Assembly: GCF_030845195.1 (NCBI RefSeq)
Contig: NZ_CP132543.1
Span: 3,613,501 to 3,677,500 of the forward strand
Reading direction: 5' to 3'
Origin: Sanyastnella coralliicola
Lineage (GTDB): Bacteria > Bacteroidota > Bacteroidia > Flavobacteriales_D > Sanyastnellaceae
Length of the DNA stretch: 64,000 bases
Of the stretch, positions 1-13,540 are shown piece after piece (the first letter of the stretch is position 1; every line of letters starts with the position of its first letter). Below the pieces are notes generated by a model. The model was not told where the DNA came from, did no database searches, and saw only the letters and a program-made list of their open reading frames with translations. Both the position numbers and the translations under genes were made by a program.

Positions 1-48
1 CTTTTTTCTTTGCCTTTTCGGCGTTTCAGCCGTTCATTCACCGTCACA

Positions 49-921
49 ATGAGCAAACGGCGCAAAAAAATAGTCAGAAAATTAAAGCGTGAATTTCGTC
101 TTTCTCTGCTTCACGAGGCAAGCTACGAAGAACGTTTTTCCATTCTGCTCACACCTTTTAACGTAATTCTGCTGATCGCAGGAATCGTGGTTGTCATTGG
201 TGGAATCACCTATGCTATCACCGCGCTCACGCCTTTGCGTGAATATGTGGTGCCGGGTTATATCGATCAGCAACACCGTCAAGATGCCTTGGATGCCAAG
301 CTCAAAGCTGACTCGTTAGAATACCGTTTGAAGCAGCAAGAGGCTTACTTGGTGAACCTTCAGACCATTCTCACCGGGGGTGTTCCTTCAGATAGTTTGC
401 TTCAACAACAAGCAGGTGGTGACGCTAGCGCGGAATTGGATTACGAAATCTCTCCGCAAGATTCTGCATTACGTGCTCAAGTGGAAGATGAAGATCGCTT
501 CGTCTTGCGCGTGAGTCAATCTAGCGCCGAAGAAGAAGGTGCAACTACTGGGTTTCTATTCAAGCCTGTAGAAGGCACCATCAGTTCAGGCTACGATGCC
601 GACAACGACCATTATGGTATCGATTTGGTAGCTCCAGAAAACAGTGTGGTCAAAGCAGTAACGGATGGAACCGTTATTCTATCAAGCTTCACCAGCGACG
701 GAGGGAATGTCATCGCTATTCAGCACAAAAACGAATTCATTTCCATCTACAAACACAACAGTGCCTTGTACAAGGAAATGGGTGAGCAAGTACGCGCGGG
801 GGAGTCGATCGCAGTGATCGGAAATACAGGAGACCACAGTGACGGGCCTCACCTGCATTTCGAATTATGGCATCGAGGGAACCCGGTGGATCCCCTCGAC
901 TATTTCATCTTTGAAGAGTAG
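49..921 (+). CDS. M23 family metallopeptidase (LytM-like, membrane anchored)
   Basis: Probable peptidoglycan endopeptidase or endopeptidase activator of the cell envelope. The 290-residue product has a very basic N-terminus, one membrane segment at about residues 38-60, a short coiled coil at about 75-105 and a C-terminal M23 (LytM/peptidase M23) domain. The zinc ligand motifs are visible: HYGIDL at about residue 190 and HLHFELW near the end, followed by the family-typical NPVDPL. A TTG at 10 is in frame, but the ATG at 49, followed by a Lys/Arg-rich stretch and then the membrane anchor, is the natural start. It converges with the PfkB kinase, the stops being one base apart. The family assignment is secure; whether it cuts peptidoglycan itself cannot be told from sequence. 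Confidence 0.9.
   Translation: MSKRRKKIVRKLKREFRLSLLHEASYEERFSILLTPFNVILLIAGIVVVIGGITYAITALTPLREYVVPGYIDQQHRQDALDAKLKADSLEYRLKQQEAYLVNLQTILTGGVPSDSLLQQQAGGDASAELDYEISPQDSALRAQVEDEDRFVLRVSQSSAEEEGATTGFLFKPVEGTISSGYDADNDHYGIDLVAPENSVVKAVTDGTVILSSFTSDGGNVIAIQHKNEFISIYKHNSALYKEMGEQVRAGESIAVIGNTGDHSDGPHLHFELWHRGNPVDPLDYFIFEE
423..435 (-). repeat. Iterated 13-mer TTCCGCGCTAGCG, copy 1
   Basis: Exact copy on the minus strand (reads CGCTAGCGCGGAA on the plus strand), inside the M23 peptidase gene, where it encodes Ala-Ser-Ala-Glu. One of seven exact copies in the window; see findings. Confidence 0.8.
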
Positions 922-922
922 A

Positions 923-1849
923 CTACTCTACAAGTACAATGTCAAAATCTACGAGATCAACGAACTTCTGAATTCGGTGGTCAATCTCATTTGTCGTTAG
1001 CGACATCAAACGCTCTGGTCCGAACGCCTCACATGTAAACGACGCCATCGCAGATCCGATGATCACCGCACGCTTCATGTTCTGGAATGAAATGTCGTCA
1101 GTGTGCGCAAGGTATCCGATGAACCCACCAGCGAAAGTATCTCCAGCTCCTGTTGGGTCAACTACGTCTTCCAACGGCAGTGCGGGTGCGAAGAACACTT
1201 TTTCTTCATCGAACAATAGTGCTCCGTGCTCACCCTTCTTGATGATCAGGTAACGTGGGCCCATTGTCAAGATCTTCTGCGCCGCCTTCACCAATGAGTG
1301 CTCGCCCGTCAACTGACGTGCTTCTTCATCGTTGATCGTCAATACGTCCACCTTCGCAATCACTGCTGCAAGCTTGTCCATTGCGATGTCCATCCAGAAG
1401 TTCATCGTATCAAGCACAACCAGCTTCGGACGTTTCGGCATTTGGTCAATCACAGACATCTGTACTGTTGGGTCAAGGTTTCCGAGCATCACATACTCAG
1501 CTCCTTTCGCCTCTTCAGGAACTACAGGTTGGAAATCAGCCAATACGTTCAACTGTGTATCGAGCGTATCACGAGAATTCATGTCGTAATGGTACTTTCC
1601 AGACCAGAAGAAAGACTTCTCTCCTTCTTTAATCTGCAGACCGCCTTGTGCGATACCGCGCGCTTTCATGTCAGCCAAAAACGCTGAAGGAAAGTCATCA
1701 CCCACCACAGAGATGAGTTCAGAATGCTTAACGAAGTAGCTGGCAGCCAGCGTGATGTAGGTTGCGGCACCTCCCACTACTTTATCGGTTTTCCCGAATG
1801 GTGTTTCAATGGCATCAAAGGCCACCGTTCCAACTGCGATTAGACTCAT
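923..1849 (-). CDS. PfkB/ribokinase family sugar kinase
   Basis: Predicted ATP-dependent kinase of the PfkB (ribokinase/adenosine kinase) superfamily, 308 residues, cytoplasmic. The N-terminal substrate-side signature VVGGAATYITLAA lies at about residues 24-36. The C-terminal PfkB signature DPTGAGDTFAGGF at about 231-243 includes the catalytic Asp of the GAGD anion-hole motif. An upstream TATCTTTG (minus strand, 1864-1871) fits a Bacteroidota -7 promoter element with a leader of only a few bases. The substrate (ribose, adenosine, fructose-6-P or other) cannot be decided from the sequence. It stands alone, convergent with the peptidase gene and divergent from tRNA-Asn. Confidence 0.9.
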   Translation of the reverse strand: MSLIAVGTVAFDAIETPFGKTDKVVGGAATYITLAASYFVKHSELISVVGDDFPSAFLADMKARGIAQGGLQIKEGEKSFFWSGKYHYDMNSRDTLDTQLNVLADFQPVVPEEAKGAEYVMLGNLDPTVQMSVIDQMPKRPKLVVLDTMNFWMDIAMDKLAAVIAKVDVLTINDEEARQLTGEHSLVKAAQKILTMGPRYLIIKKGEHGALLFDEEKVFFAPALPLEDVVDPTGAGDTFAGGFIGYLAHTDDISFQNMKRAVIIGSAMASFTCEAFGPERLMSLTTNEIDHRIQKFVDLVDFDIVLVE

Positions 1850-1863
1850 GTGAAATTTTTCCG

Positions 1864-1871
1864 CAAAGATA
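1864..1871 (-). promoter_or_regulatory. -7 promoter element (TATCTTTG) of the sugar kinase gene
   Basis: Exact match to the Bacteroidota -7 consensus TAnnTTTG on the minus strand, 14 bases before the ATG at 1849. No clear TTG -33 box was seen, so this is a moderate call. Confidence 0.5.
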
Positions 1872-1902
1872 TTGTTTTGCTTATAAGATTAGCGTAATAT
1901 TG
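1872..1902 (+). promoter_or_regulatory. Putative tRNA-Asn promoter (TTG-N20-TAATATTG)
   Basis: TTG at 1872-1874, then 20 bases, then TAATATTG at 1895-1902: a one-mismatch fit to the Bacteroidota TTG/TAnnTTTG promoter at the right spacing, 28 bases upstream of the mature tRNA. Confidence 0.5.
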
Positions 1903-1930
1903 CACCCCGTTTTACGCGGGCAACATACCT

Positions 1931-2004
1931 TCCCCTGTAGCTCAGTTGGTTAGAGCATCTGACTGTTAATCAGAGGGTCGTTGGTTCAAGTCCAACCGGG
2001 GGAG
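1931..2004 (+). tRNA. tRNA-Asn (anticodon GTT)
   Basis: Full cloverleaf: acceptor stem TCCCCTG pairing with CGGGGGA, a D-arm, anticodon stem TCTGA/TCAGA with loop CTGTTAA giving anticodon GTT, and T-arm GTTGG/CCAAC with loop TTCAAGT. The discriminator base is G at 2004. The CCA end is not encoded (CA then G follows), so CCA must be added enzymatically. It is followed at once by a rho-independent terminator, so it is a single-gene unit. Confidence 0.97.
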
Positions 2005-2012
2005 CAGAAATG

Positions 2013-2036
2013 AGGGGGCAATAGCCTCCTTTTTTT
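2013..2036 (+). terminator. Rho-independent terminator after tRNA-Asn
   Basis: Stem GGGGGC (2014-2019) pairs with GCCTCC (2024-2029), with one G-T wobble and loop AATA, followed by seven T residues. It sits nine bases after the tRNA. Confidence 0.85.
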
Positions 2037-2040
2037 GTGC

Positions 2041-2497
2041 CCTAGAATTTGGGGATTGTTGTTTTCGGATGGATTTCATCCATCCCTACGATACGCCCTT
2101 CTTCGCGGTTCTTCGTTGAGGCGCATAAATGCGCCGCTAAAGGACCAATTTCCCACACGGAGCGAGATGTAGGGGCGCATGAAATGCGTCCATATCCTGG
2201 GTCTCCAATTAATGGGTTCTTCCGGATCACCGAACCTTTTCAATTGGTTCTCACCTAAACCGGGGTGATCCCGGATGGATTTCATCCATCCCTACATATC
2301 CTTCTGTTTTTACGATTCTTCTGTTGAGGCGCATAAATCCCGAAGTGCGGGACAGGTGCGCCGCTAAAGGACCAATTTCCCACGAAAGGTGAGATGTAGG
2401 GGCGCATGAAATGCGTCCAAATCCCGGGCCGACCATTATTGGGTTCGGCCGTTTCAGGTTTAGAGGGATAAGACCTAAACCAGGGTGATGCCAGATG
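2041..2497. repeat. Composite hairpin repeat region R1 (two tandem units)
   Basis: This gene-free stretch holds two tandem copies of a composite repeat that recurs at 3541-3821, 5763-6049 and 7295-7600. Each unit is built of small perfect hairpins: H1 GGATGGATTTCATCCATCC (2067-2085 and 2273-2291), H2 GGCGCATAAATGCGCC (2120-2135; in the second unit split by an inserted hairpin), H3 GGGGCGCATGAAATGCGTCC (about 2172-2191 and 2400-2419) and, in the second unit only, H4 with core CCCGAAGTGCGGG (about 2339). The order is H1-H2-H3-H1, with the last H1 degenerate near 2495. Open frames here are by-products of the repeats; their translations recur at every copy and have no start signals. Confidence 0.85.
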
Positions 2498-2508
2498 GAG
2501 GTCAAGCA

Positions 2509-3015
2509 TTACCTTTTTTCAAACGTGTACAAATAGTGTTCGTTGGGACTTAAACCGTTCTCGTCAATAATCATCAACGAAGCAGTAGTAAACTTTTGTG
2601 TAGTCTCTAAATGCATGGAAAGCAGGTCTTCATGATCGAGAAAGTCTTTTAGTCTCGGGCACCGAAGAAAATAATCACCGTAGTCATCGTCATGGTTAGA
2701 TGACCATCGCTCAATTCTGGAGCTCTTTAACTTAGATCCGTCTCGATAAATACAAACTCTTCCTCGATCTATGAAACGAATTTCAAGGTCTATCGTCGAA
2801 GCGTTAAAGACTTGTGTTGTGTCAAAAGAAGGTGCTCCGGTTTCGTATTTCAGTTGATCAATTGAAACACATTCCCATGAGCCGATTAGAACATCGCCTT
2901 GGCCCTCAAGTGGTCTTTTTCTGCATCCTGGGGTTACCAAAACGGCGAACGCACAAGCGAGTATCAAGACCAGCCTACCTAGGTTGAAGTTCTTCTTTGA
3001 TTCTGTCGATTTCAT
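2509..3015 (-). CDS. Small lipoprotein, paralogue 6 of the tandem family
   Basis: Lipoprotein of 168 residues with a signal peptide ending in lipobox VTPGC at about residue 31. The family core is present: a GSWECV motif, an Asp-Thr-Thr-containing segment, then DLEIRFIDRGRVCIYRDG and KLKSSRIE. The GxW motif followed by short beta strands recalls small lipocalin-like lipoproteins, but that is a weak resemblance and the function is unknown. Its start overlaps the end of the upstream paralogue by 4 bases (ATGA), so the two are probably translationally coupled. It is the most distant member and the last gene of the second lipoprotein operon; hairpin repeats follow it directly. Confidence 0.8.
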   Translation of the reverse strand: MKSTESKKNFNLGRLVLILACAFAVLVTPGCRKRPLEGQGDVLIGSWECVSIDQLKYETGAPSFDTTQVFNASTIDLEIRFIDRGRVCIYRDGSKLKSSRIERWSSNHDDDYGDYFLRCPRLKDFLDHEDLLSMHLETTQKFTTASLMIIDENGLSPNEHYLYTFEKR

Positions 3016-3515
3016 TCTATTCTATCAAACACATAGTGAAACCCAAGAGAGATCTCGCTTTCTGATTGGAAATAATTCAGGTTTGCAGTTCCGAAAGAGT
3101 CCGGAGAGTCATGAAAAGCCATAATAAGAAAGTCCTGATGAAGAACCTTCTTCAAACCAGGGCACACAAGAAAAAGACTTTGGCGTTCAACTAAATCTGC
3201 ACTTCCAAGTTCTGTAATACTCTCAATTCTCGAGCTCTTTCGTTTGCGACCACCTTCATAAACACAAATCCTACCTTTATCTAAAATAAGTATCTCCAAA
3301 TCCGTAGAAAAGCTATGCTCAATAGTGTCCACCTGGTTCGTGGCATAGTTCCACTTCCGTTCAAAGATCCGAGTACATTCCCACCTGCCTACAGCTATTT
3401 CATTGTATCCCTCAAACTCCTCTTTCTGACAGGAAAGGATAGAGGTTAAAATGAATGCTAGCATTAACGCAATACTGATCTTTTGCATAAGACCGTTTCG
3501 TTGAGGTCGTTTCAT
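3012..3515 (-). CDS. Small lipoprotein, paralogue 5 of the tandem family
   Basis: 167 residues; signal peptide with lipobox SILSC near residue 29. The family core is visible as VGRWECTRI, then DLEILILDKGRICVYEGG, then KRKSSRIE. It is the first gene of a two-gene operon and overlaps the next paralogue by 4 bases. Its 5' end (MKRPQ) and the roughly 250 bases upstream are nearly identical to those of the paralogue at 5277-5756, so both operons seem to carry copies of the same upstream segment. An internal ATG at residue 10 would also leave a full signal peptide; the longer start is preferred because it matches the duplicated sister gene. Function unknown. Confidence 0.8.
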   Translation of the reverse strand: MKRPQRNGLMQKISIALMLAFILTSILSCQKEEFEGYNEIAVGRWECTRIFERKWNYATNQVDTIEHSFSTDLEILILDKGRICVYEGGRKRKSSRIESITELGSADLVERQSLFLVCPGLKKVLHQDFLIMAFHDSPDSFGTANLNYFQSESEISLGFHYVFDRIE

Positions 3516-3540
3516 AGTTGTTTTAGTGCAATGCCTTTGT

Positions 3541-3821
3541 CAAGGTACAGATGATACAAGAAATGTTGTTGAAACCCCAATGAGCGGGTGTAAATCCGTG
3601 GTTTGGTGGAGGGGTTGAAGCGCAAAATTCCCGAAGCACGGGACAGGTGAGGCGCATAAATGCGCCGCTAAAGGACAAATTTCCCACACGGAGCGAGATG
3701 TAGGGGCGCATGAAATGCGTCCAAATCCCGGGTCTACCATTATTGGGTTCGGCCGTTTCACGATTCAGGTTTAGAGGAATCACACCCAAAACCAGGGTGA
3801 TATCGGATGGATTTCCTTGGT
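3541..3821. repeat. Composite hairpin repeat region R2, upstream of lipoprotein operon 2
   Basis: Contains H4 (3629-3643), an intact H2 (3651-3666), H3 (3703-3722) and a truncated H1 (from about 3804, reading GGATGGATTTCC then diverging). The non-hairpin part at 3511-3640 and the tail at 3722-3805 are almost base-for-base the same as 5752-5870 and 5948-6031. The stretch 3516-3827 has no other gene; the promoter of the two-gene operon must lie in it. Confidence 0.85.
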
Positions 3822-3827
3822 TTGAGG

Positions 3828-4301
3828 CTACTCTACTTTCTCGAAATAGAAATTATACACGACCTCTGGATAGTTACTGACTAGTCCGTCTATTAGCAGG
3901 TGGTCGGACCAAAAACGCACTTCATCTATGGGCTGAATTCCAATATGTTCATCGTACTCTAATCCTTCTTGTAGATAGTCACCGAGCCCTCTCGTTCTCA
4001 CAGTAATTGATGTCGAGATTCCTGTTACGATTTCTCTTACCCTGGCACTTCTAAGTTTCTCATTACCATCATAAAGGCACAAACGCCCACGTTCAAGAAA
4101 AAGGATCTCTAAATCCGTTTCCAGTGTTATCGGTATCGTGTCAAAATCTCCAGATTCGGGATAAGAGATTGCTTCTGCTTTCACGCATTTCCATCGCCCA
4201 ACAAGGAAACTGGCTTCGTCATCGAAGTTGTTTTTCGTGCAGCTGCACAACATCAATGACGACAGAATTAGAACGCTGACGTTTCGTTGGAATGTGTTCA
4301 T
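3828..4301 (-). CDS. Small lipoprotein, paralogue 4 of the tandem family
   Basis: 157 residues with an N-terminal signal and a Cys-Ser-Cys at the lipobox position (about residues 19-21). The first half, from the mature N-terminus (TKNNFDDEASFLVGRWKCV) through the DLEILFLERGRLCLYDG strand region, is practically identical in DNA and protein to the next two upstream paralogues. The middle (about residues 90-130) is different, and the end (LLIDGLVSNYPEV) becomes similar again. It is the last gene of a four-gene operon, 15 bases after its neighbour. Function unknown; probably lipid-anchored in the envelope. Confidence 0.82.
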   Translation of the reverse strand: MNTFQRNVSVLILSSLMLCSCTKNNFDDEASFLVGRWKCVKAEAISYPESGDFDTIPITLETDLEILFLERGRLCLYDGNEKLRSARVREIVTGISTSITVRTRGLGDYLQEGLEYDEHIGIQPIDEVRFWSDHLLIDGLVSNYPEVVYNFYFEKVE

Positions 4302-4316
4302 TACCAGCTACGGGCG

Positions 4317-4790
4317 TTACTCGATCTTTTCAAAATAAAGGTCATAAAGAACTTCAGGATAGTCATTCACGAAACCATCAATCAGAAGAGTGTTCGTCGT
4401 AAACCTGTCATCACTCAAATATTGAATTCCAAGACTTTCGTCTTCTTTGTTTCCTTCTTGTAAATAATCGCTTAGTCCACCTGTCTCAATTCCAATGGAA
4501 TTTTCAACAGTAGAAAAGATTTCTCTTACCCTGGCGCTTTTAAGTTTTTCATTTCCATCATAAAGGCATAAACGCCCACGTTCAAGAAACAGGATCTCTA
4601 AATCCGTTTCCAGTGTTATCGGTATCGTGTCAAAATCTCCAGATTCGGGATAAGAGATTGCTTCTGCTTTCACGCATTTCCATCGCCCAACAAGGAAGCT
4701 GGCTTCGTCATCGAAGTTGTTTTTCGTGCAGCTGCACAACATCAATGACGACAGAATTAGAATGCTGACGTTCGGTTGGAATGTGTTCAT
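4317..4790 (-). CDS. Small lipoprotein, paralogue 3 of the tandem family
   Basis: 157 residues, with signal peptide and core nearly identical to the paralogue at 3828-4301, including the VGRWKCV and LERGRLCLYDG segments. The central stretch (about residues 90-130, starting IFSTVENSIGIETGG) is distinct. The C-terminal FEKIE ending is shared with the 4805-5275 paralogue. It lies 14-15 bases from both neighbours, so the genes are cotranscribed. High identity of the 5' halves with divergence in the middle points to recent duplication with either gene conversion or selection for variation. Function unknown. Confidence 0.82.
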   Translation of the reverse strand: MNTFQPNVSILILSSLMLCSCTKNNFDDEASFLVGRWKCVKAEAISYPESGDFDTIPITLETDLEILFLERGRLCLYDGNEKLKSARVREIFSTVENSIGIETGGLSDYLQEGNKEDESLGIQYLSDDRFTTNTLLIDGFVNDYPEVLYDLYFEKIE

Positions 4791-4804
4791 TACCTGCTTT
4801 AGGG

Positions 4805-5275
4805 TTACTCAATCTTTTCAAAATAAAGGTCATAAAGAACTTCAGGATAGTCATCCACAAACCCGTCTATGAGAAAGAGGTTTGTATAAAAGCTTTCGTC
4901 GTCAACTGGCACCAACCCGAAAGACTCGCTGTCTTTTACTGATGACTGCAAATATTCGCTCAAGCCTTTTGTTTCAACATTAATCGTTCCTAATGCGCCG
5001 GTAGAAACCTCCTTTACCCTTGCGCTTTTGAGTTTCTCATTACCATCATAAAGGCACAAACGCCCACGTTCAAGAAAAAGGATCTCTAAATCCGTTTCCA
5101 GTGTTATCGGTATCGTATCAAAATCTCCAGATTCGGGATAAGAGATTGCTTCTGCTTTCACGCATTTCCATCGGCCAACAAGGAAGCTGGCTTCGTCATC
5201 GAAGTTGTTTTTTGTGCAGCCTTGAATAAACAGCACAAAACAAATGCCCAATACATACGGCGCCCTTTTCAACAT
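4805..5275 (-). CDS. Small lipoprotein, paralogue 2 of the tandem family
   Basis: 156 residues starting at MLKRAPYVLG; lipobox FIQGC at about residue 20. An in-frame start exists at 5299, but the ATG at 5275 gives a clean signal peptide and sits at the junction TAACATG, one base from the stop of the upstream gene, which suggests translational coupling. The mature core is the same as in the two downstream paralogues, but the signal peptide is different. The middle segment (from about VSTGALGTINVETKG) is unique, and the C-terminus (FLIDGFVDDYPEV) is conserved. Function unknown. Confidence 0.82.
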   Translation of the reverse strand: MLKRAPYVLGICFVLFIQGCTKNNFDDEASFLVGRWKCVKAEAISYPESGDFDTIPITLETDLEILFLERGRLCLYDGNEKLKSARVKEVSTGALGTINVETKGLSEYLQSSVKDSESFGLVPVDDESFYTNLFLIDGFVDDYPEVLYDLYFEKIE

Positions 5276-5276
5276 G

Positions 5277-5756
5277 TTATTCAATTCGAATAAAAGCATA
5301 GTTCACATCTCCGTCGGGGTCAATTGGGTCGTTTGGGACAAAGTTCAAACTCTTTGTTACAATACTGTCTTCATTGTATACAGCAAAAGACAGCGCATCC
5401 TCTATACTCAAATAGTCATTTAAACCTGGGCAAGTGATAAAAACAACAGTCCACGTGTCATTTGTGCTTTCCCACACCTCACTTGCTCGAGAACTTTTCA
5501 ATCTAGAATCTCCATCATAAAGGCATAGCCTACCCCTTTCTATGATTTCTAATTCTAGATCTATATCCAAACTATGGTTAGTCGTATCATAATAAGGAGA
5601 TGGCTCGTAATCAACTTCTTGCACCAAAACACACTTCCACCTTCCAACCAAAACCGAGGCATCTCCATCGAAGTCATTTTTAGTGCAGCCGCTAATAATC
5701 AACGCCACAAAAAAGGACAGTATGAATAACAGGAAGCTTTGTTGAGGTCGTTTCAT
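5277..5756 (-). CDS. Small lipoprotein, paralogue 1 of the tandem family (first gene of operon 1)
   Basis: 159 residues starting at MKRPQQSFLL, with lipobox ALIISGC near residue 23. The open frame runs further upstream through repeat R3, but those codons translate the repeat; the ATG at 5756 is equivalent to that of the sister gene at 3515. The core reads VGRWKCVLV, DLELEIIERGRLCLYDG and RLKSSRASE. The C-terminal half differs from the other paralogues (ITCPGLNDYL resembles the VCPGLKKVL of the 3012-3515 gene). It heads a four-gene operon running to 3828. Function unknown. Confidence 0.82.
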   Translation of the reverse strand: MKRPQQSFLLFILSFFVALIISGCTKNDFDGDASVLVGRWKCVLVQEVDYEPSPYYDTTNHSLDIDLELEIIERGRLCLYDGDSRLKSSRASEVWESTNDTWTVVFITCPGLNDYLSIEDALSFAVYNEDSIVTKSLNFVPNDPIDPDGDVNYAFIRIE

Positions 5757-5762
5757 AGTTGT

Positions 5763-6049
5763 TTTAGTGCAATGCCTTTCCCAAGGTACAGATGATACAA
5801 GAAATGTTGTTGAAACCCCAATGAGTGGGTGTAAATCCGTGGTTTGGTGGAGGGGTTGAAGCGCAAAATTCCCGAAGCACGGGACAGGTGCGCCGCTAAA
5901 GGACCAGACCCTCCTGAGGCTTAATGTAGGGGCGCATGAAATGCGTCCAAATCCCGGGCCTACCATTATTGGGTTCGGCCGTTTCACGATTCAGGTTTAG
6001 AGGAATCACACCCAAAACCAGGGTGATATCGGATGGATTTCATCCATCC
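5763..6049. repeat. Composite hairpin repeat region R3, upstream of lipoprotein operon 1
   Basis: Contains H4 (5870-5884), only the right half of H2 (TGCGCCGC after H4), H3 (5929-5948) and an intact H1 (6031-6049). Nearly identical to R2 apart from the H2 region and an altered 30-base stretch before H3. It separates the divergent lipoprotein operon from the secreted-protein gene at 6174, and with the heptamer run after it fills the gene-free stretch 5757-6173. Confidence 0.85.
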
Positions 6050-6089
6050 CTACAACGACCTATTCCTTTAGTTTCCTCGCCGGTCACCC

Positions 6090-6112
6090 ACGAACCACGA
6101 ACCACGAACCAC
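6090..6112 (+). repeat. Short tandem heptamer (CGAACCA) run
   Basis: Three and a bit copies of the 7-base unit CGAACCA directly after repeat R3. A similar degenerate run (ACGAACC units) lies at about 7575-7596, so the gene at 6174-7286 is bracketed by both hairpin repeats and heptamer runs. Confidence 0.7.
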
Positions 6113-6142
6113 CCCTGGTTCACCACTCCCTAAACGATTGCG

Positions 6143-6150
6143 TACCTTTG
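6143..6150 (+). promoter_or_regulatory. -7 promoter element (TACCTTTG) of the Cys-rich secreted protein gene
   Basis: Exact TAnnTTTG match 23 bases before the ATG at 6174, with TTC at 6119-6121 as a possible -33 box. The site lies just after the heptamer run, so the promoter is outside the repeated DNA. Confidence 0.55.
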
Positions 6151-6173
6151 CAACCACTAACCAAGCTTTATTG

Positions 6174-7286
6174 ATGCACACTATGAAGGCCTTTATTACC
6201 CTTTCCACCCTCGTTTCGTTTTTACTTATTTCAGCTCTCGGGTTCTCCCAAACTACTTGGACCGGGAATGGGGATGGGATTCTTTGGGCAGATCCATCTA
6301 ACTGGGATAATGGGCTTCCTGCAGCTGGAAATGATGCCACCATTCCTACTGGAGCAATGGCTTTTATCTCATCATTTTTGACGGTGGATTATCTCATCAC
6401 TGTTGACGGGTCACTTATCCTTGATGGTTTTATGTACTTCACTTCAGGCGGACTAGATGTTCAAGGCAATTTCGAAATGTACAACGCCGAGATATACCTC
6501 TTTGAAGGCACTAGCATCAACAACAACGGGACCTTTTTCACGCAGGACGGTACTTTCGTCATACTGGAGACGGCTACTTTTTACAATTCTAGCTTCGTGA
6601 CGTTTAACACGGGGATTATCAACACGGGCAACATTGTCAACGAAGGAACAATCTTCTCGAACGCCAGCTTCAACACTGATGGAGTCATCGACAACTTCGG
6701 AACCTTTGAAAATGGTGCCTCAGTAACGAATGACGGGGTCATTAACCAATGCGGAATTTGGAATGGTCCAGACCCGACAAACAATCCATTTGCATTCGCT
6801 TGTCCTGGTTGTACTGACCCTACCGCTTGTAACTATGAGCCTGAGGCTATTAGTGACGACGGATCTTGCATCTTACCTGATGGCTGCACGGACAGCGGTG
6901 CCTGTAATTATGACCCCGCTGCCACTTGCGACGACGGGTCATGTGATTATATCTCGTGTGCTGACTGCTGTGGAATCCCGTTTGGTGACGGAACTACTTG
7001 TGACGGTATTTGCGGTCCTTGCAATGATGACACCTCTTGTTACGGATGCACATACGCTGTAGCAACAAACTATGACCCAGCCGTCACCTTTGACGACGGG
7101 TCGTGTGAGTTTGAAGTTTGTGATGTGACTGTAGACAACCAAGCAGTGTACGATGAGGCTTTTGCTGCTGGGGTAGCGTCTGTAGAAGGCTCATGTCCTA
7201 GTGACTTCAACAACGACGGTACCGTGGGTACGGCCGATCTTCTGGCTTTCCTTGGTACGTTGGGTACTACGTGTTCTCCGGAATAG
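6174..7286 (+). CDS. Secreted protein with Cys-rich CNYDP repeats and a terminal EF-hand/dockerin-like motif
   Basis: 370 residues from the ATG at 6174; an ATG at 6183 (MKAFITL) is equally good and begins the signal peptide. The mature protein begins TTWTGNGDGILWADPSNW, a start common in Bacteroidota surface proteins. An Asn/Gly-rich beta-helix-like region follows (about residues 60-205). Then come three copies of a loop of the form CTxxxACNYxPxAxxxDDGSC (about 215-325), the last less regular. The end is DFNNDGTVGTADLLAFLG, a calcium-binding EF-hand/dockerin-like motif. No T9SS type A or B sorting domain follows, although that would be usual for such proteins; the gene may have lost its tail where repeat R4 begins, or may use another anchor. 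Function unknown; probably exported. Confidence 0.78.
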   Translation: MHTMKAFITLSTLVSFLLISALGFSQTTWTGNGDGILWADPSNWDNGLPAAGNDATIPTGAMAFISSFLTVDYLITVDGSLILDGFMYFTSGGLDVQGNFEMYNAEIYLFEGTSINNNGTFFTQDGTFVILETATFYNSSFVTFNTGIINTGNIVNEGTIFSNASFNTDGVIDNFGTFENGASVTNDGVINQCGIWNGPDPTNNPFAFACPGCTDPTACNYEPEAISDDGSCILPDGCTDSGACNYDPAATCDDGSCDYISCADCCGIPFGDGTTCDGICGPCNDDTSCYGCTYAVATNYDPAVTFDDGSCEFEVCDVTVDNQAVYDEAFAAGVASVEGSCPSDFNNDGTVGTADLLAFLGTLGTTCSPE

Positions 7287-7294
7287 GGGTGCCC

Positions 7295-7600
7295 TTCGGG
7301 TGATGGATGGATTTCATCCATCCCTGCGAATACGCCTATGTTACGGAAACTTCGTTGAGGCGCATAAATCCCGAAGCACGGGACAGGTGCGCCGCTAAAG
7401 GACCAGACCCTACTGAGGCTTAATGTAGGGGCACATGAAATGCGTCCATTTCGGGATTAGAGGGATCACACCCAAAACCAGGGTGATGCCGGATGGATTT
7501 CATCCATCCCTACAATTGGTCTTTCTTCACGGTTCTGCGTTGAGGCGCATCAATGCGCACAGAAACAACAAAACCTACGAACCACGAACCACGACCTACG
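7295..7600. repeat. Composite hairpin repeat region R4
   Basis: Contains H1 (7305-7323), H2 split by an inserted H4 (H4 at 7369-7383), a variant H3 reading GGGGCACATGAAATGCGTCC (7428-7447), a second H1 (7491-7509), a variant H2 near 7543 (GGCGCATCAATGCGCAC) and the degenerate heptamer run at about 7575-7596. It fills the stretch between the secreted protein and the end of the minus-strand operon; no gene is seen in it. Confidence 0.85.
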
Positions 7601-8870
7601 AACTCCTAGTCACCTGTTTTGAGCGATCGCGTTCGAAAGACCATTGAATACCGAGCATTCCAAAAGCGTTGGTGTAGCTTCGGCGCACACGAGTGGTAAT
7701 CTCTGTGGTGTTCGATTCACGAGAAGCATAACCTCCTTCAATTCTCAACCACCAGTTGCCTTTGAGGCGGCGCATCACCTTTGCGTTGGCGCGCAAGTAG
7801 GTGTACTCTAGGGTTGGGAATGGGACTCCTTCTGCGGCTCGGGCTAGACGATCATCGTAATCACGGCTGGTGTAACTGACCGATGTGTTTACGTCCCAGT
7901 CATCAGACTTGACATAGAAGCGAATACCCGGTTGCCATTGCACGTAACTGAAGTCTCCGTTGCTGATGTCGAATCGACGGGTGTACTCGATGAAGGGTTT
8001 TACCTTCACTTGCTTACTCATCGGGAACACGTAATCTAGCTGACCAACTAAGTATCTCCAGCGTCTTGCCGTGTAGGTGATGTTCGGGTCAAACGGGAAG
8101 AAAGGGTCTGGCGCCAGTGGGTCTGGGTCTTCTTGAAGCAACTCGTAATTGATCCAATCGAAGTAGCGACGATCACGGGCGTGCACCTCTATTCCTATCT
8201 TCTGCGTTCGCTTGGCAATCTCGCCTGTCTTGATTTCTTGACGAAACTTTGCTCCCCACTCACGCTGGGTCAAACTCACATCTTGCTTATTCAAGTCACA
8301 ACCGAAACAGATGTCGTAATTCTTATACGAGTAGGTCACTTCCAGTTTTGAAGAGTTCCCCCTTGTTTTTTGTCGTTCCACATAAGCGCCTCCATCTACT
8401 TGGTTGAAAGAGAACGGTGTCAAGAGTTCGCTACCAAGAACGTTCAGTCCAAGTCGGTCTTGTGTTCTCAGTCGCACGTGCGCTCCCTTGCGCAAGCCCG
8501 TTTTCGGCTTGTGGTCATAACTCAACTTCGAGTAGGCCTCCGTTGCGTTCGCTTGCGTGGTGTTTTGGTAGCGTAATAGCTCACCATGCGTCTTCCAGTT
8601 GATGCGGTGGGCATTGAACGACCATTTCATGTTGATCGTTCCGTCTAATTGCAAGAAGGGTTCACTCACAATGAGCTGAGAACGTTCCAAGGTGTCAACT
8701 ACGTTCGTATTGTCACGAATGTAGATGTCAGGAGAATTGAAAACGTTGTCACGATATCCAGGCGCAGCGCTGAGTTCGATCGACATGGTCGACTGAGCAC
8801 TTGTTTGTGTTGTAAACGCAATGGCGAGTAGCGTCAACAGCAGGATCCGGTGTTCAAATTCCTTTCTCAT
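7596..8870 (-). CDS. Outer-membrane beta-barrel protein (last gene of the seven-gene operon)
   Basis: 424 residues from the ATG at 8870, two codons into the longest possible frame; the signal peptide is MRKEFEHRILLLTLLAIAF and ends near TSAQS. The rest is a regular alternation of aromatic/hydrophobic and polar residues in about 10-residue strands, with Arg/Tyr-rich turns and a near-terminal aromatic strand (GIQWSFERD), as expected for an integral outer-membrane barrel of 12-16 strands. No specific family is recognised. The start overlaps the end of the TPR gene by 17 bases, so the two are coupled. It could be a porin, export channel or assembly partner for the upstream TPR and ligase genes. 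Confidence 0.75.
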   Translation of the reverse strand: MRKEFEHRILLLTLLAIAFTTQTSAQSTMSIELSAAPGYRDNVFNSPDIYIRDNTNVVDTLERSQLIVSEPFLQLDGTINMKWSFNAHRINWKTHGELLRYQNTTQANATEAYSKLSYDHKPKTGLRKGAHVRLRTQDRLGLNVLGSELLTPFSFNQVDGGAYVERQKTRGNSSKLEVTYSYKNYDICFGCDLNKQDVSLTQREWGAKFRQEIKTGEIAKRTQKIGIEVHARDRRYFDWINYELLQEDPDPLAPDPFFPFDPNITYTARRWRYLVGQLDYVFPMSKQVKVKPFIEYTRRFDISNGDFSYVQWQPGIRFYVKSDDWDVNTSVSYTSRDYDDRLARAAEGVPFPTLEYTYLRANAKVMRRLKGNWWLRIEGGYASRESNTTEITTRVRRSYTNAFGMLGIQWSFERDRSKQVTRSS

Positions 8871-11115
8871 TTGCAAATTCAGGATATAAACTCCTTAGGC
8901 GCAGGGCATATTCCGCACTTCGGGGGTCGTTGGTTTCTGATAGTAGTTGTGTCAAACGATATAGGGTGAATTTGTGTTCTGCATCCACTTGCAAAGCTCT
9001 GGAGAATTCCGATTCCGCGCTAGCGAAATCACCCAAGTCATAAAATGCCTTGCCTTGCCAGTAGCGAATCCAAACGCCATCTTTACCCGCACTTTCAGCT
9101 TTGCGGTAATAGTCAATGGCGTTCTGAAATTGATCTGCCTTGTGCATGTCGCGCGCCAAATCATAGTATGGCTCAGACTCTTCTCTTAGCTCTACTTCAA
9201 ATGTTCGCGCTAATAATTCTTGTTCTTTATCCTTCGCCTTCACCGCCAATTCTGCCCATTTCTCAATGGCTTTAAGGTAGTCACGACGGATACGAACAGC
9301 CTTGTTGAGGTGAATAATGGCCTCGTCAAAATTGCCCTTCTTCTCGTACTGCAGCGCTAGATTGAAGCGAAGCTGTGCATCGCTATTATCGATGTCTAGT
9401 GCCTGTCGGTATTGAAGAATTGCTTGATCAAGATCACCCGTCGAGGCGTAAATGTTCCCTAGATTTTTCCAAGCCGAAGTATAATTCGGGTCAAGGTCAA
9501 TCGCACGCTCATAAGCAGCGATCGCCTCTTGGTTCGCTCCACTTTCCGCGCGAGCGACACCCAAGTTGAACCATGCTTTACTATAGTTTGGAAAGCGCAC
9601 CAACATCTCTTCATACACCTTACGCGCAATCTGAGGTTGGTCTTGATCTAAGTACAACGACCCAATGTTGTACCATGCTTTCAGATAATCAGGGTCAACG
9701 TCAATCAGCGCTCGGTAAGTCTCAATCGCCTTCTCCACATTCTTCTGATCACTGTAGATCTTACCTAAGTTATAGCGCGCCTTCACAGCCTTTGGGTTGA
9801 TCTCAATCGCTCGCTCATAACATCGAACAGCGTCTGCATCATTCCCCGCGCTGCGGTGGGCCAAAGCCATATTGTACCACGCCGATTCATAAGATGCGCG
9901 CACTTCCGTAGCCCGTTGGTATGAGGCAATGGCGTCGTCAATCTTGCCTTGCTTCTTCAAGAGAATTCCCCTGTTCAAGTAGGCCTCGGCATAATTGCCA
10001 TCAGAGAGATCAATGGCTTTTTCATAGAGGCTGATCGCCGTCTCTAACTCACCATTGCGGCTCGCAATTTTTGCTCTGTAGAAAAACTGCTGTGGCGCCA
10101 ATGTGTCTTGTCCATATACCTGATCGAAGTATTCTTCAGCTCGCACGATCAAATCATTGTTGATGTAGAACGAACCGAGCAATTGCGATAGGTCTTTGTC
10201 TGCTGGATTCAACTGCAGGGCCTTCTCGAAACTCTGACGTGCATCGTCTGTGCGACCCATGTCTTCCAACACCACACCTCTGTAGTAGTATGCCGGCGCA
10301 TACCCCGGACGCAGTGCGATGACTTTGTCTAATTCTTCTAATCGAACCTCATCTTCGGCGATAGCCAAGGTGCGGTAGATACGCGGCAAGATGTAAGACG
10401 GAGCCAAGTTGATCGCCTCTTCAAAGTAGCCGGTAGCCGCTAACGAATCGCCCAAGTTGAATGCCACCATTCCTCGGTAGGTGTTGGCTTTGGCTTTTTG
10501 TTCTCCGGCGGCATATTTGATGGCGTTATTTAACGCTAGCGCGGAAGCAGCCCACTCCTCAATTCGACAATGCATGATACCTCGATTAAGCCACGCCTTG
10601 GAGTTCGCCGGTGAATGTGTCACCACCAATTCATACACAGAATCTGCCGCTGCATAGTTCTCACAACGAGAGTAAACCAATGCCAAATTGATCAACGATG
10701 GTACGTATGCACTATCACTTGCCAAGGCTTGTTCAAACAGGGTTTTCGACTCTACGGTTTGATCTGTGTGTAGGTAAATCAACCCTAAGTAATTTCGAAT
10801 TGAAGGCTCTTCTGGGTACTTATTGACCAGCGAACTGAAGAACTCTTCGGCACGATTGTATTGACTACGGCGGTAAGCGTCTACGGCGTTCACAAACAGG
10901 GAATCCGCTTCGAGACCTTCGGTTGCGTCAACGAACTCTTCGCGTTCGAATTGCCAGATGTCGTTTCGCTCATTGTTAATCACGTCATCTGTGATGTACA
11001 CGATCGTTGGCTCGGCGCTTTTGTCGCGGGCCACTCGATCAGCCATAATCACGATAACAATGACAATCGCGAGGAAAATCAGGAAAGGGGTGGCTGTTGC
11101 TTTCTTCTTTCTCAT
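8854..11115 (-). CDS. Membrane-anchored TPR-repeat protein
   Basis: 753 residues. A single hydrophobic segment at about residues 7-25 follows a Lys-rich start, so the protein is anchored in the inner membrane with the bulk outside. From about residue 55 to the end it is a near-continuous array of about 18-20 tetratricopeptide repeats with the usual W-L-G-Y-A-F-A-P pattern (for example AWYNLGxxY and AIxxYExAIxLxP). Such solenoids are scaffolds for protein complexes. It overlaps the ATP-grasp gene upstream by 4 bases (ATGA) and the barrel gene downstream by 17, so its partners are most likely the products of this operon. Two copies of the iterated 13-mer lie inside it. Confidence 0.88.
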   Translation of the reverse strand: MRKKKATATPFLIFLAIVIVIVIMADRVARDKSAEPTIVYITDDVINNERNDIWQFEREEFVDATEGLEADSLFVNAVDAYRRSQYNRAEEFFSSLVNKYPEEPSIRNYLGLIYLHTDQTVESKTLFEQALASDSAYVPSLINLALVYSRCENYAAADSVYELVVTHSPANSKAWLNRGIMHCRIEEWAASALALNNAIKYAAGEQKAKANTYRGMVAFNLGDSLAATGYFEEAINLAPSYILPRIYRTLAIAEDEVRLEELDKVIALRPGYAPAYYYRGVVLEDMGRTDDARQSFEKALQLNPADKDLSQLLGSFYINNDLIVRAEEYFDQVYGQDTLAPQQFFYRAKIASRNGELETAISLYEKAIDLSDGNYAEAYLNRGILLKKQGKIDDAIASYQRATEVRASYESAWYNMALAHRSAGNDADAVRCYERAIEINPKAVKARYNLGKIYSDQKNVEKAIETYRALIDVDPDYLKAWYNIGSLYLDQDQPQIARKVYEEMLVRFPNYSKAWFNLGVARAESGANQEAIAAYERAIDLDPNYTSAWKNLGNIYASTGDLDQAILQYRQALDIDNSDAQLRFNLALQYEKKGNFDEAIIHLNKAVRIRRDYLKAIEKWAELAVKAKDKEQELLARTFEVELREESEPYYDLARDMHKADQFQNAIDYYRKAESAGKDGVWIRYWQGKAFYDLGDFASAESEFSRALQVDAEHKFTLYRLTQLLSETNDPRSAEYALRLRSLYPEFANEKGI
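9013..9025 (+). repeat. Iterated 13-mer TTCCGCGCTAGCG, copy 2
   Basis: Exact copy on the plus strand inside the minus-strand TPR gene (coding strand gives Ala-Ser-Ala-Glu). A one-mismatch copy (TTCCGCGCGAGCG) lies at 9544-9556 in the same gene. Confidence 0.8.
10534..10546 (-). repeat. Iterated 13-mer TTCCGCGCTAGCG, copy 3
   Basis: Exact copy on the minus strand in the TPR gene, orientation opposite to copy 2; here the coding strand is read Ser-Ala-Leu-Ala, a different peptide from the other copy in this gene. Confidence 0.8.
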
Positions 11116-11975
11116 ACGATCGTCCTCCTTAGTCCATCTTGATTAACGTTTTGAATTTCTAGTCCTGGTCGCACATTGATCTCGAGCACCATCGGCCCTT
11201 TGTGCTGATCAAAGGCGATATCTATTCCTAAATAATTGAGTGGAAATGCCGCGTCTACCTTCAAACAAGTGTCAAGCACCTTTGGCCAATCAGGAAGCTG
11301 TACTCCGGTAATTTGTTGTCCTGTATCTGGGTGAATTTCAGCATAAGATTGAAGGTCAAACACCTTCTTCAATATGCCTGTTTCAATATCCACACCTACT
11401 CCTACGGCTCCTTGGTGGAGGTTCGCTTTTCCATCTGAACCTTTGGTTGGAAGTCGGAGCATCGCCATGACGATTTCTCCTTCTTTCACGATCACACGGA
11501 CATCAGCAATACCTAAGTGGCATAGGTTAGTCACCGTTTCGTGCTGGATGATTTTCTCTTCAATCAGCACCTTATCATCTGCTCCGAAGCTGAATACTCC
11601 AAAGATGATGTTCGCGATGTGACGTTCAATGGTGTCCTCTGAAATCGGTTTTCCGCCTTTAGTCCAACCATTTTCTTCATCATAATCAACGATGAGAATT
11701 CCACCGCCTCCGGATCCTTTGCTGGGTTTAATCACACAACTCTTGCGGGGAGTTGCCGCCCATTTTTCCGTAATGTCTCCGACACTCTCGATGACCATAA
11801 ACTGCTCCGCTACCGAAACCTTATGCTCTTCGAGGATCGCCTTCGTCAACACCTTGTCGTCTGCCAAGTGGAAGTACTTTCTCGGATTCAATGGGTACAC
11901 CAGCTTTAGGTTACGCTCATTGATTCCCAGGGCCACCTGGTCGATCTCCTTACGTTTCTTGAACCACTTCATCAT
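11112..11975 (-). CDS. RimK-like ATP-grasp ligase (alpha-L-glutamate ligase-like)
   Basis: 287 residues from the ATG at 11975; in-frame ATGs at 11987 and 11972 are alternatives. The ATG at 11975 shares one base with the upstream stop (TGATG). ATP-grasp signatures: KPSKGSGGGG (about 82-91) is the glycine-rich nucleotide loop after a conserved Lys, and EINVRPGLEIQN near the C-terminus supplies Mg-binding Glu and Asn. The closest family I recognise is the alpha-L-glutamate ligase-like group related to RimK, which in Proteobacteria is found beside 7TM-transglutaminase genes. The expected reaction is ATP-dependent formation of an amide bond with an amino acid, but the substrate is unknown. No lysine biosynthesis carrier or ribosomal S6 context is present. 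Confidence 0.85.
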   Translation of the reverse strand: MMKWFKKRKEIDQVALGINERNLKLVYPLNPRKYFHLADDKVLTKAILEEHKVSVAEQFMVIESVGDITEKWAATPRKSCVIKPSKGSGGGGILIVDYDEENGWTKGGKPISEDTIERHIANIIFGVFSFGADDKVLIEEKIIQHETVTNLCHLGIADVRVIVKEGEIVMAMLRLPTKGSDGKANLHQGAVGVGVDIETGILKKVFDLQSYAEIHPDTGQQITGVQLPDWPKVLDTCLKVDAAFPLNYLGIDIAFDQHKGPMVLEINVRPGLEIQNVNQDGLRRTIV

Positions 11976-13540
11976 CACACCAACCATTTAAATCGACGGT
12001 ACTCCGTGACACGAAGTCCAATCCATCTTCCCAAGAGAAGCATGGCCGCGATAATCGTTAAGAAGAGCTCAGGGAAGGCGAGGAAAATAGCCTCCATAGT
12101 TGTTGAGTTCATGGCCACATAAGCACCCAACACAACCACTAAGGTTTGGATCGTAATCTTAATGGCATCTCCGTATCCTTCTTCCATCACGGTGCGCGCG
12201 AAGCGCTCGGCGGTAATGGTGATTACCACCACCGGGAAGAGTGTGATATAAGCCAACTCGGTGTAGTTCATTTTGATCCCGATGATCGATAGCAAGATGA
12301 ACGCGATCACCACGGTCACCAGCATGATGACCATCTTCGGAGTGTACAGCATTCCGAGCCGTTCGAGCGGGTAGTGCATCAGGCTTACAATGACAATCAC
12401 CAACACGAATGCCAGCATTCCCCAGAGTAATCCTGTGTATCCAACGGCCACGGCAATCAGTGCTGGTAGGAAGACTCCAAAGGTTTTTAAGCCGATTACA
12501 TTTCGGGCGATAGCCACTACCATCGCACCCAACGGCATGAGCAGAATTACCTTCAACAATGACAAAGGAATACCTGCCTTTTCGAAGGCCGTCCACATCA
12601 AGTAGGTATTGAAGGCGCTGCTTTTCAGCTCGCTTGCCAACTTCGGGTTACTCACCAGTTTTGGCTGGATGGTAAAGAGGTGGTCAAATTCAATGTTTGC
12701 CGTACGGCTGAATAGGAAGTTATCTTCTTTGTAGAGCTCCAAGTAATTGGCAGGAATCGATGCAAAGTGCCCGTTCAAACAGTCAAATGGAACCCAAAAG
12801 CCTCCCATATAAACCTCTGCCCATTGGTGGGTGGTTTTCTTGCTTCCTTGATCCATAATCAAGCCGCCCACCAATCGAGCTGGAATGCCTTTATTTCGAC
12901 AGAGTGCAACGAACAAACGCGACTTTCCATTACACGAGGCCTCTCCTAATTTCAACGTGGTCAACGCATCGGTCAACCCCTTGAAAGGACGTGACTCCAT
13001 GCCGTTAATCTCGGTGAAGATTGACGTCAAGATGGGGAGGAAGCGTTCCTCTGACCCTGTGAGTTCATCGGCCTTTGCTAAGATCTGCGGGTGGTTGCTT
13101 TGGATCGCTGCCGTGCTGTTCAGGTATTGGTATACCGAAGGCGGCAGGTCGCGTGGCACCGCCATGTCAGGATCGATGTCAAACTGAATCGCCTTTCCTC
13201 GTGCTTCGAAAGAGTAGCGAATGAGCTTTTTTCCGTTCACGGCTTGGGCAGTCCAAGTGACCCTTCGGCCCGTGGCGTCGTTCAACTGAGTGACCCCAAA
13301 GACACCCGTTTCTTGAATTTCATTTGTGATTTCCTGGCGCTCGTTAGAAATTGGCAGCCAGGTGCTTACTTGTATCTCATCCCCGAAACCTTCGATATCA
13401 AAAGTTACGCTTACCTCGTAGCTAGTTGTCGGAAGGATATTGTTGAATGAATATCCATACACGAAAACCTTGAACAAGATTAGAATAAGGGGGATGATCA
13501 GAAATAAGCCAACGATGACGTGATAACTTCTGATCTTCAA
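11975..13540 (-). CDS. Transglutaminase-like domain fused to seven transmembrane helices
   Basis: 521 residues. Order: an N-terminal membrane anchor (about 7-30), a beta-rich extracytoplasmic region (about 40-130), a transglutaminase-like domain (about 160-270), and a C-terminal block of seven hydrophobic helices (about 327-349, 354-370, 371-390, 402-421, 428-443, 461-476, 487-505). This matches the family known as inactive transglutaminase fused to 7 transmembrane helices. Here, however, the papain-like triad seems intact: Cys203 in ASCNGKS, His238 in THQWAEVY and Asp253 in FWVPFDC. Its neighbour is the RimK-like ligase, the usual partner of this family. The zinc protease found with the pair in Proteobacteria is not in the window. 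Probable role: envelope peptide or amide modification, or sensing. Biochemistry is unknown. Confidence 0.85.
   Translation of the reverse strand: MKIRSYHVIVGLFLIIPLILILFKVFVYGYSFNNILPTTSYEVSVTFDIEGFGDEIQVSTWLPISNERQEITNEIQETGVFGVTQLNDATGRRVTWTAQAVNGKKLIRYSFEARGKAIQFDIDPDMAVPRDLPPSVYQYLNSTAAIQSNHPQILAKADELTGSEERFLPILTSIFTEINGMESRPFKGLTDALTTLKLGEASCNGKSRLFVALCRNKGIPARLVGGLIMDQGSKKTTHQWAEVYMGGFWVPFDCLNGHFASIPANYLELYKEDNFLFSRTANIEFDHLFTIQPKLVSNPKLASELKSSAFNTYLMWTAFEKAGIPLSLLKVILLMPLGAMVVAIARNVIGLKTFGVFLPALIAVAVGYTGLLWGMLAFVLVIVIVSLMHYPLERLGMLYTPKMVIMLVTVVIAFILLSIIGIKMNYTELAYITLFPVVVITITAERFARTVMEEGYGDAIKITIQTLVVVLGAYVAMNSTTMEAIFLAFPELFLTIIAAMLLLGRWIGLRVTEYRRFKWLV

Follow-up and report, generated by a model that had tools for sequence, protein, structure and literature searches.

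A run of six lipoprotein genes on the minus strand of a 64,000-nucleotide stretch of Sanyastnella coralliicola DNA (GCF_030845195.1, contig NZ_CP132543.1, positions 3,613,501 to 3,677,500; hereafter the window) raises two questions: how can neighbouring paralogues be nearly identical in one segment and saturated with differences in the next, and what is such an array for? The six paralogues, A to F, occupy positions 2509-5756 of the window, in a genome (G000) of 4.10 Mb that is assembled as one contig and belongs to the order Flavobacteriales. Followed into related genomes, the local mosaic grows into a recombining lipoprotein family that is linked, at some of its loci, to enzymes exported by the type IX secretion system (T9SS), and a role in binding and controlling such enzymes may tentatively be suggested. 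Many small lipoproteins in Bacteroidota are of unknown function; genome context here ties one family of them to T9SS enzymes, and the coding sequences of this family are exchanged as units within conserved surroundings.

Mosaic structure of the lipoprotein genes

The mosaic is seen in B, C and D. On codon alignments in B numbering, scored with Nei-Gojobori counts, codons 20-86 of the three genes differ by 0.145-0.232 synonymous (dS) and 0-0.006 non-synonymous (dN) substitutions per site, and in codons 93-137 the proportions of differing sites are 0.78-0.81 for synonymous positions (pS), which is saturated, and 0.37-0.43 for non-synonymous positions (pN). Divergence along the paralogues is non-uniform, with a sharp step between these two segments. 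In shuffling tests of 20,000 rounds, synonymous differences as rare as those of codons 20-86 arose in none of the rounds for any of the three pairs, and the longest runs of identical codons (18, 28 and 35) had p values of 0.0019 for the first and 0 of 20,000 for each of the others. The dS of the front tract resembles that of flanking genes of a second family locus, discussed below, compared between G000 and a congeneric genome, G001 (0.19-0.31). Because protein-level selection alone gives no such synonymous contrast between neighbouring segments, the front segment of B, C and D, judged by its synonymous sites, was made uniform in recent time, through gene conversion or through chimeric duplication.

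The borders of the homogenised tract are specific to each pair, with C and D sharing the signal peptide and 8 nucleotides upstream, in which B does not take part. Across the last 19 codons, convergence in DNA is limited to one pair, B with C, at a dS of 0.285; in comparisons with D the synonymous sites are saturated (pS 1.0), and for this reason the similarity of the 3' end of D to those of B and C is taken as protein conservation. A sequence-only reading of the same DNA had described near-identity over about 90 residues after the lipobox, a strongly differing middle and a last stretch of 20 residues in which the genes converge again. The near-identity in DNA and protein is present, but it extends over about 67-70 residues from the lipobox cysteine, the higher figure being a count that includes the signal peptide; the strongly differing middle is borne out, while the terminal convergence holds in DNA for B and C and in protein only for D. 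Recent duplication with gene conversion, as that reading had proposed, agrees with a near-identity that reaches synonymous sites and stops abruptly, and with a copy number that varies among relatives. Its alternative, diversifying selection on one exposed segment, draws no support from the dN/dS comparison: in the variable segment pN/pS is about 0.5, which does not point to positive selection, although saturation makes this a weak test.

All six frames of the array are open and align end to end, and a lipobox cysteine is present in each of the six products (by eye in F), which are accordingly predicted to be lipidated. The motifs VGRWKC and LERGRLCLYDG, first described as common to all, hold for the whole set in the loose forms (V/I)G(R/S)W(K/E)C and (E/D)(R/K)GR(L/I/V)C(L/V/I)Y, while the exact pair is confined to B, C and D, with A carrying VGRWKC and IERGRLCLYDG. 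Within B/C/D the tandem spacing is 489 and 488 bp. The intergenic gaps measure 1 base between A and B, 14 between B and C and 15 between C and D, and A-B-C-D and E-F form two gene runs, each of which, to judge by the spacing, is probably read as one transcript. Genes A, E and F are old paralogues, with 25-39% identity to the others and a dS that is saturated or about 2-3. A seventh copy elsewhere in G000 (L008:4356-4814) is also an old paralogue, its dS being saturated or nearly so.

Replacement of coding sequences

The seventh copy is syntenic with the sole family member of G001 (L016:7660-8112). Four flanking genes differ between the two genomes by a dS of 0.187-0.306, and the lipoprotein between them has a pS of 0.81, with 68 of 148 aligned residues identical. 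In 30-base windows, identity is 0.97-1.0 across positions 4201-4320, to about 35 bases before the start codon. The final window upstream of the start has 0.87 and the one that spans it, together with the first codons, 0.80; over the remaining coding sequence the values are 0.40-0.63. After the stop codon identity is at least 0.93 in the first windows, and the lowest value further out is 0.80. Since the mutation rate is not expected to shift at a start codon, the coding sequence at this locus is, on the pattern of identity, one that was replaced, either because alleles were exchanged or because an ancestral tandem pair lost opposite members in the two lineages. A 327-amino-acid neighbour gene of the locus is found in G000 and G001 only (two of eight genomes), leaving no third genome for comparison.

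The comparison of A with E in the window repeats this picture. The two genes have in common about 290 bp of upstream DNA and their first codons, after which the coding sequences diverge strongly. The two leader copies consist of blocks that are 96% and 99% identical, separated by a weak patch and an insertion of 13 bases. The part of the leader next to the gene (about 100 bp) is matched only at A and E in G000, and the outer part is an interspersed repeat with 43 matches in all in that genome (E value up to 0.001).

At the largest scale, the whole array is present or absent. The three genomes of the genus that were compared carry seven (G000), one (G001) and two (G002) copies of the family, and in G001 the slot beside the asparagine tRNA gene (tRNA-Asn) that houses the array in G000 measures about 1.4 kb and has a flavodoxin-like gene (by eye) between the same repeats, with no member of the lipoprotein family in it. 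Identity between the two genomes is 96.7% on the tRNA-Asn side of the slot and 92.5% on the opposite side. The family turns over by recombination, as these patterns in the DNA show, at three scales, namely partial conversion among B, C and D, replacement of almost entire coding sequences downstream of a conserved leader, and presence or absence of the array.

Neutral turnover would explain part of this, with tandem duplication, unequal crossing-over and reciprocal loss acting on genes without a selected function and the sharp borders arising from recombination between duplicated leaders. The regular tandem spacing and the duplicated leaders are what such a process would leave behind, and the pattern at the single-copy locus is what would remain if an ancestral tandem pair had undergone reciprocal loss. 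With the front tract under strong purifying selection (dN 0-0.006), all seven copies in G000 open and free of internal stops, and the family arranged in tandem in other genera too, this explanation is nevertheless highly improbable. Replacement of the coding sequences hints at selection for diversity.

Such diversity could be that of surface antigens or receptors (for phage, predators or bacteriocins) under frequency-dependent selection, a role that the sequence-only reading had also considered. Allelic exchange and gene conversion are described for rag and other surface loci of Porphyromonas gingivalis, a Bacteroidota species, in the accessible part of the published account (PMC5266723). As at those loci, divergent alleles occupy one chromosomal place and are spread by recombination; the protein families are different, and the exchanged unit here is a lipoprotein coding sequence of about 150 amino acids. 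The surface-antigen explanation suits a replacement that is bounded by the coding sequence, and it has this published precedent. A parallel in receptor replacement by producers of Bacteroidales antimicrobial proteins was sought in a further account (PMC12853789), which yielded nothing of use. The known type of surface-export signal, C-X-K-(D/E)2 or a related sequence after the cysteine, as given for Capnocytophaga in the accessible part of its source (PMC5080379), occurs in one of 35 family members, gene E, though the rule is that of Capnocytophaga and may not be the signal of this lineage. Variable surface antigens are, on this count, decidedly unlikely.

Secreted enzymes beside the family and candidate roles

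A profile of the seven members, all from G000, was searched against 199 genomes of the order and found the family in 19 of them, G000 included, with 39 matches in 24 loci (hand count); at two of these loci (G080 and G097) the matches are weak and lie inside longer frames. Tandem members occur in G002, G033, G043 and G049. In scans of genome contigs, a first alignment confirmed none of 24 pattern matches and a second gave five loci.

At seven of the 24 loci (G002, which is of the same genus, G007, G043 C6, G043 C7, G049, G111 and G171), the family gene is preceded on its own strand by the gene for a T9SS-sorted protein, homologous between loci and about 910-1000 amino acids long, or for a C-terminal fragment of it. 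The G049 locus has undetermined bases, the family gene of G111 is cut by a contig end, G171 has an enzyme fragment only, and in G007 one gene for a 119-amino-acid lipoprotein stands between the enzyme and the family gene. Five of eight junctions in these gene runs are 4-base overlaps, and the other three are overlaps of 11-16 bases. By a rough estimate, given the few such enzymes among about 3000 genes, adjacency at seven of 24 loci is very unlikely to have arisen by chance.

Four of the enzymes that were compared have 25-38% mutual identity. All four match the sorting-tail model TIGR04183, and three exceed the Pfam cut-off for Por_Secre_tail, with that of G007 below it. A profile of the enzyme matches structures of DUF5060 proteins (9gmj, E value 9.9e-37; 9gpc, 2.7e-36), and in this alignment two glutamates line up, in SEINN/NEVDI and SELG/GEFG, which we take to be the putative catalytic pair of such barrels. 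The enzymes have no Pfam peptidase match.

A gene with a coiled-coil-like end (e.g. EELTLYLIELNKR) precedes the enzyme in G002, G007, G043 C6, G043 C7 and G111, and also at eight further loci. Two of the eight have divergent family members (four in G100 and one in G010), the G010 member following a separate 271-amino-acid protein with a T9SS-type tail. In G007, G140 and G185, a further set of small genes comes after C-terminal fragments of the enzyme, which looks like a duplication of cassettes. Separate C-terminal enzyme pieces lie at L118:5396-7437, L108:2501-3016 and L111:7084-8187, most of them preceding another small lipoprotein or barrel-like gene, again in the manner of duplicated cassettes.

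Structure prediction gives the lipoproteins a likely fold. The AlphaFold2 model of B, built from an alignment of 16 rows, has a small barrel after the signal helix (mean predicted local distance difference test score, pLDDT, 80.9), and G34 and W36, which form a GxW motif, are invariant in all 16 rows. The variable segment maps to the second half of this barrel and a helical insert. Foldseek returned nothing at an E value of 0.001 or better for this model, its best match being a Bacteroides lipocalin-family protein at 3.4e-3. In comparisons with VIA-align, the Treponema protein Tp0751 came first (Z 9.9), and potempin E, a small lipoprotein discussed below, ranked sixth (Z 8.0); a relation to Tp0751 was set aside, as it looks like a generic small-barrel match. 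Bacteroides structures among the matches bear the titles "lipocalin family" and "putative monosaccharide binding protein". For an enzyme-linked member from G043 (L059), the model has a mean pLDDT of 75.6; potempin E ranks first (Z 8.6, 88 residues, 2.8 A, 15% identity) in a tie that takes in lipocalins and fatty-acid-binding proteins, and surface glycan-binding protein B scores Z 7.0. The lipocalin-like fold that had been offered as one possibility from the sequence is supported by these models and matches, and the closeness to potempin E is suggestive only.

Searches of family libraries were uninformative. Pfam gave no family for the six window proteins (E value up to 1), NCBIfam only chance-level matches for the seven members (best 0.14), PHROGs nothing useful for the lipoproteins, and a sequence search of the PDB a chance match only; tblastn with gene B against plasmids and phages found no match at an E value up to 0.01. 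Bacteroidota lipocalin-like proteins of known structure (PDB 4gzv, 4i95, 4iab and 4qrl) likewise have the GxW start and a single small barrel, and the family differs from them in its tandem mosaic array, its T9SS context in relatives and its lack of a Pfam match.

The favoured explanation, though a tentative one, is that the lipoproteins resemble potempins in being partners or inhibitors of secreted enzymes, that recombination has diversified them, and that the window holds an array that lacks its enzyme. Potempins, in the accessible parts of two reports (PMC7296668, PMC4404884), are small lipoproteins whose genes lie directly before those of T9SS-secreted KLIKK proteases, and they reportedly inhibit the co-expressed protease and vary together with it between strains. 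Like the potempins of Tannerella forsythia as these sources present them, family genes at some loci adjoin T9SS-secreted enzymes and vary between strains, and potempin E is a small barrel of the same kind. Given this neighbourhood at part of the loci, together with the size, predicted lipid anchor and general fold shared with potempins, the role judged most likely is to bind a secreted enzyme so as to restrain or escort it. The lipoprotein would bind the T9SS enzyme on the face of the outer membrane turned to the periplasm and keep it inactive, or escort it, until export, as potempins do for KLIKK proteases, and the variable half of the barrel would set partner specificity. A missing surface-export signal in 34 of 35 members fits a periplasm-facing place, provided that the Capnocytophaga rule, as far as its source is accessible, holds in this lineage. 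Since the enzyme is missing in the window, the array may guard against enzymes encoded elsewhere or by neighbours; as the least secure step of the proposal, it would be an expanded enzyme-less set neutralising several secreted enzymes or the enzymes of other strains.

Several observations weigh against this explanation. The window array has no adjoining T9SS enzyme, and 17 of the 24 family loci do not lie behind one. G000 has one enzyme homologue at an E value of 1e-10 or better (C1:2774386-2776455; 4 of 84 candidates scored), which has no family member beside it and whose match ends at position 804 of 920, before the sorting tail. At the other six of the eight further enzyme loci, the enzyme is accompanied by other small lipoproteins or barrel-like proteins (by eye). 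In contrast to potempin genes, which in the accessible accounts precede the protease gene, the lipoprotein gene here comes after the enzyme, and the partner looks DUF5060- or glycosidase-like, though one of four enzymes also matched a model of T9SS-dependent M36 peptidases (2.6e-6), perhaps through the shared tail. The likeness to potempins is one of fold and gene context rather than of demonstrated sequence relation, and inhibition by the present lipoproteins is putative. In the structural comparisons, Tp0751 outscores potempin E for the model of B, and lipocalin-family proteins, a fatty-acid-binding protein and potempin E are tied at Z 8.0-8.2.

Ligand binding is the main rival, given a glycosidase-like partner and a fold in which small molecules are often bound. 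The barrels would bind sugars or lipids, such as the products of the glycosidase-like enzyme, and the paralogues would differ in specificity. The lipocalin-like fold with its monosaccharide- and glycan-binding matches, the shared gene run with a DUF5060 glycosidase-like protein, and the presence of a TonB-receptor-like gene (by eye) ahead of the weak member in G080 are all consistent with such a role. Against it stands the divergence that fills a coding sequence between conserved flanks, a pattern seen more often in genes of conflict than in genes for the binding of nutrients, and ligand binding is on balance somewhat unlikely.

The proposal of the sequence-only reading that the genes form an array of immunity lipoproteins is preserved here in a related form, in that relatives follow a T9SS-secreted enzyme. 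As originally meant, each lipoprotein would be an immunity protein or decoy neutralising an incoming or kin-secreted antibacterial effector, and the array a set of orphan immunity genes. A tandem, exchanged array beside tRNA-Asn, the repeated sets of enzyme C-terminal fragment and small genes in G007, G140 and G185, and the patchy distribution over 19 of 199 genomes would all suit this. No toxin gene was recognised by eye at positions 1-12000 of the window, where no toxin scan of the neighbours was made; Pfam found no toxin family in the ten linked proteins scanned, PADLOC gave no defence family for the seven members (E value up to 1), and the linked secreted protein resembles a glycosidase. 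An immunity array in this strict sense is unlikely.

The control of secreted enzymes can also be framed more broadly, as an unnamed two-part system of Flavobacteriales in which a T9SS-exported glycosidase-like enzyme is paired with a controlling, hypervariable lipocalin-like lipoprotein, whose alleles change places as cassettes of coding sequence while the leader stays the same and accumulate in enzyme-less arrays that guard against the enzymes of kin. In this complete form the proposal is doubtful. In the targeted literature searches made, no such lipoprotein/T9SS-enzyme system was found in print. If the lipoproteins do restrain secreted enzymes, control of the potempin type would not be confined to oral proteases but would take in glycosidase-like enzymes of other Bacteroidota, and other conflict genes could be sought by a simple sign, a conserved leader joined to an exchanged coding sequence.

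Features and repeats of the tRNA-Asn slot

Coordinates of the array and its slot are collected in Table 1.

Table 1. Features of the lipoprotein array and its surroundings (window positions)
Feature	Position	Strand	Remarks
Gene A	5277..5756	-	Lipoprotein paralogue, 159 aa; heads run A-B-C-D
Gene B	4805..5275	-	Lipoprotein paralogue, 156 aa; own signal peptide
Gene C	4317..4790	-	Lipoprotein paralogue, 157 aa
Gene D	3828..4301	-	Lipoprotein paralogue, 157 aa
Gene E	3012..3515	-	Lipoprotein paralogue, 167 aa; heads run E-F
Gene F	2509..3015	-	Lipoprotein paralogue, 168 aa; ATGA overlap with E
Front tract of B, codons 20-86, homogenised	5018..5218	-	dS 0.23 to C, 0.17 to D
Front tract of C, homogenised	4530..4730	-	dS 0.145 to D
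Front tract of D, homogenised	4041..4241	-	Matches tracts of B and C
Variable segment of B, codons 93-137	4865..4999	-	Synonymous saturation; second barrel half with helical insert (predicted)
Variable segment of C	4377..4511	-	Synonymous comparison with B and D
Variable segment of D	3888..4022	-	Synonymous comparison with B and C
Leader of A: upstream DNA and first codons (MKRPQ), common to E	5738..6041	-	
Leader of E: near-identical copy of leader of A	3497..3815	-	96% and 99% blocks
tRNA-Asn(GTT), edge of variable slot	1931..2005	+	Also adjoins the slot in G001 and G002
Variable slot, tRNA-Asn to gene 7596-8876	2047..7608	.	Six genes, gene 6138-7286, REP-like repeats

Besides the six lipoprotein genes, the slot contains gene 6138-7286, whose product looks secreted, contains cysteine-rich repeats (ACNYxxxAxxDDGSC) and ends in a dockerin-like stretch (by eye); its only Pfam match is below threshold. 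Palindromes resembling repetitive extragenic palindromic (REP) elements lie at positions 2047-2505, 3600-3815, 5855-6053 and 7301-7554 of the window and also elsewhere in G000. They are of the GGATGGATTTCATCCATCC type and, by eye, of GGCGCAT..ATGCGCC types. The palindrome GGATGGATTTCATCCATCC has 13 exact copies in G000, five of them inside the 5.6 kb slot, with none for the backwards control; it is present in G001 and absent from G002. At the tRNA-Asn locus of G002, 13 further partial matches to the 3' part of the tRNA and the DNA downstream of it lie about 110 bp apart (L024:9965-11388), and ARAGORN calls one tRNA only.

A search for a transposase that could act on REP-like repeats gave one Y1_Tnp match in G000 (E value 3e-4), which lies far from the array and exceeds the cut-off only when its in-frame neighbours are included. 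In G171, a gene resembling REP-associated transposases (by eye; L056:4723-5355) is the immediate upstream neighbour of the enzyme fragment and lipoprotein gene.

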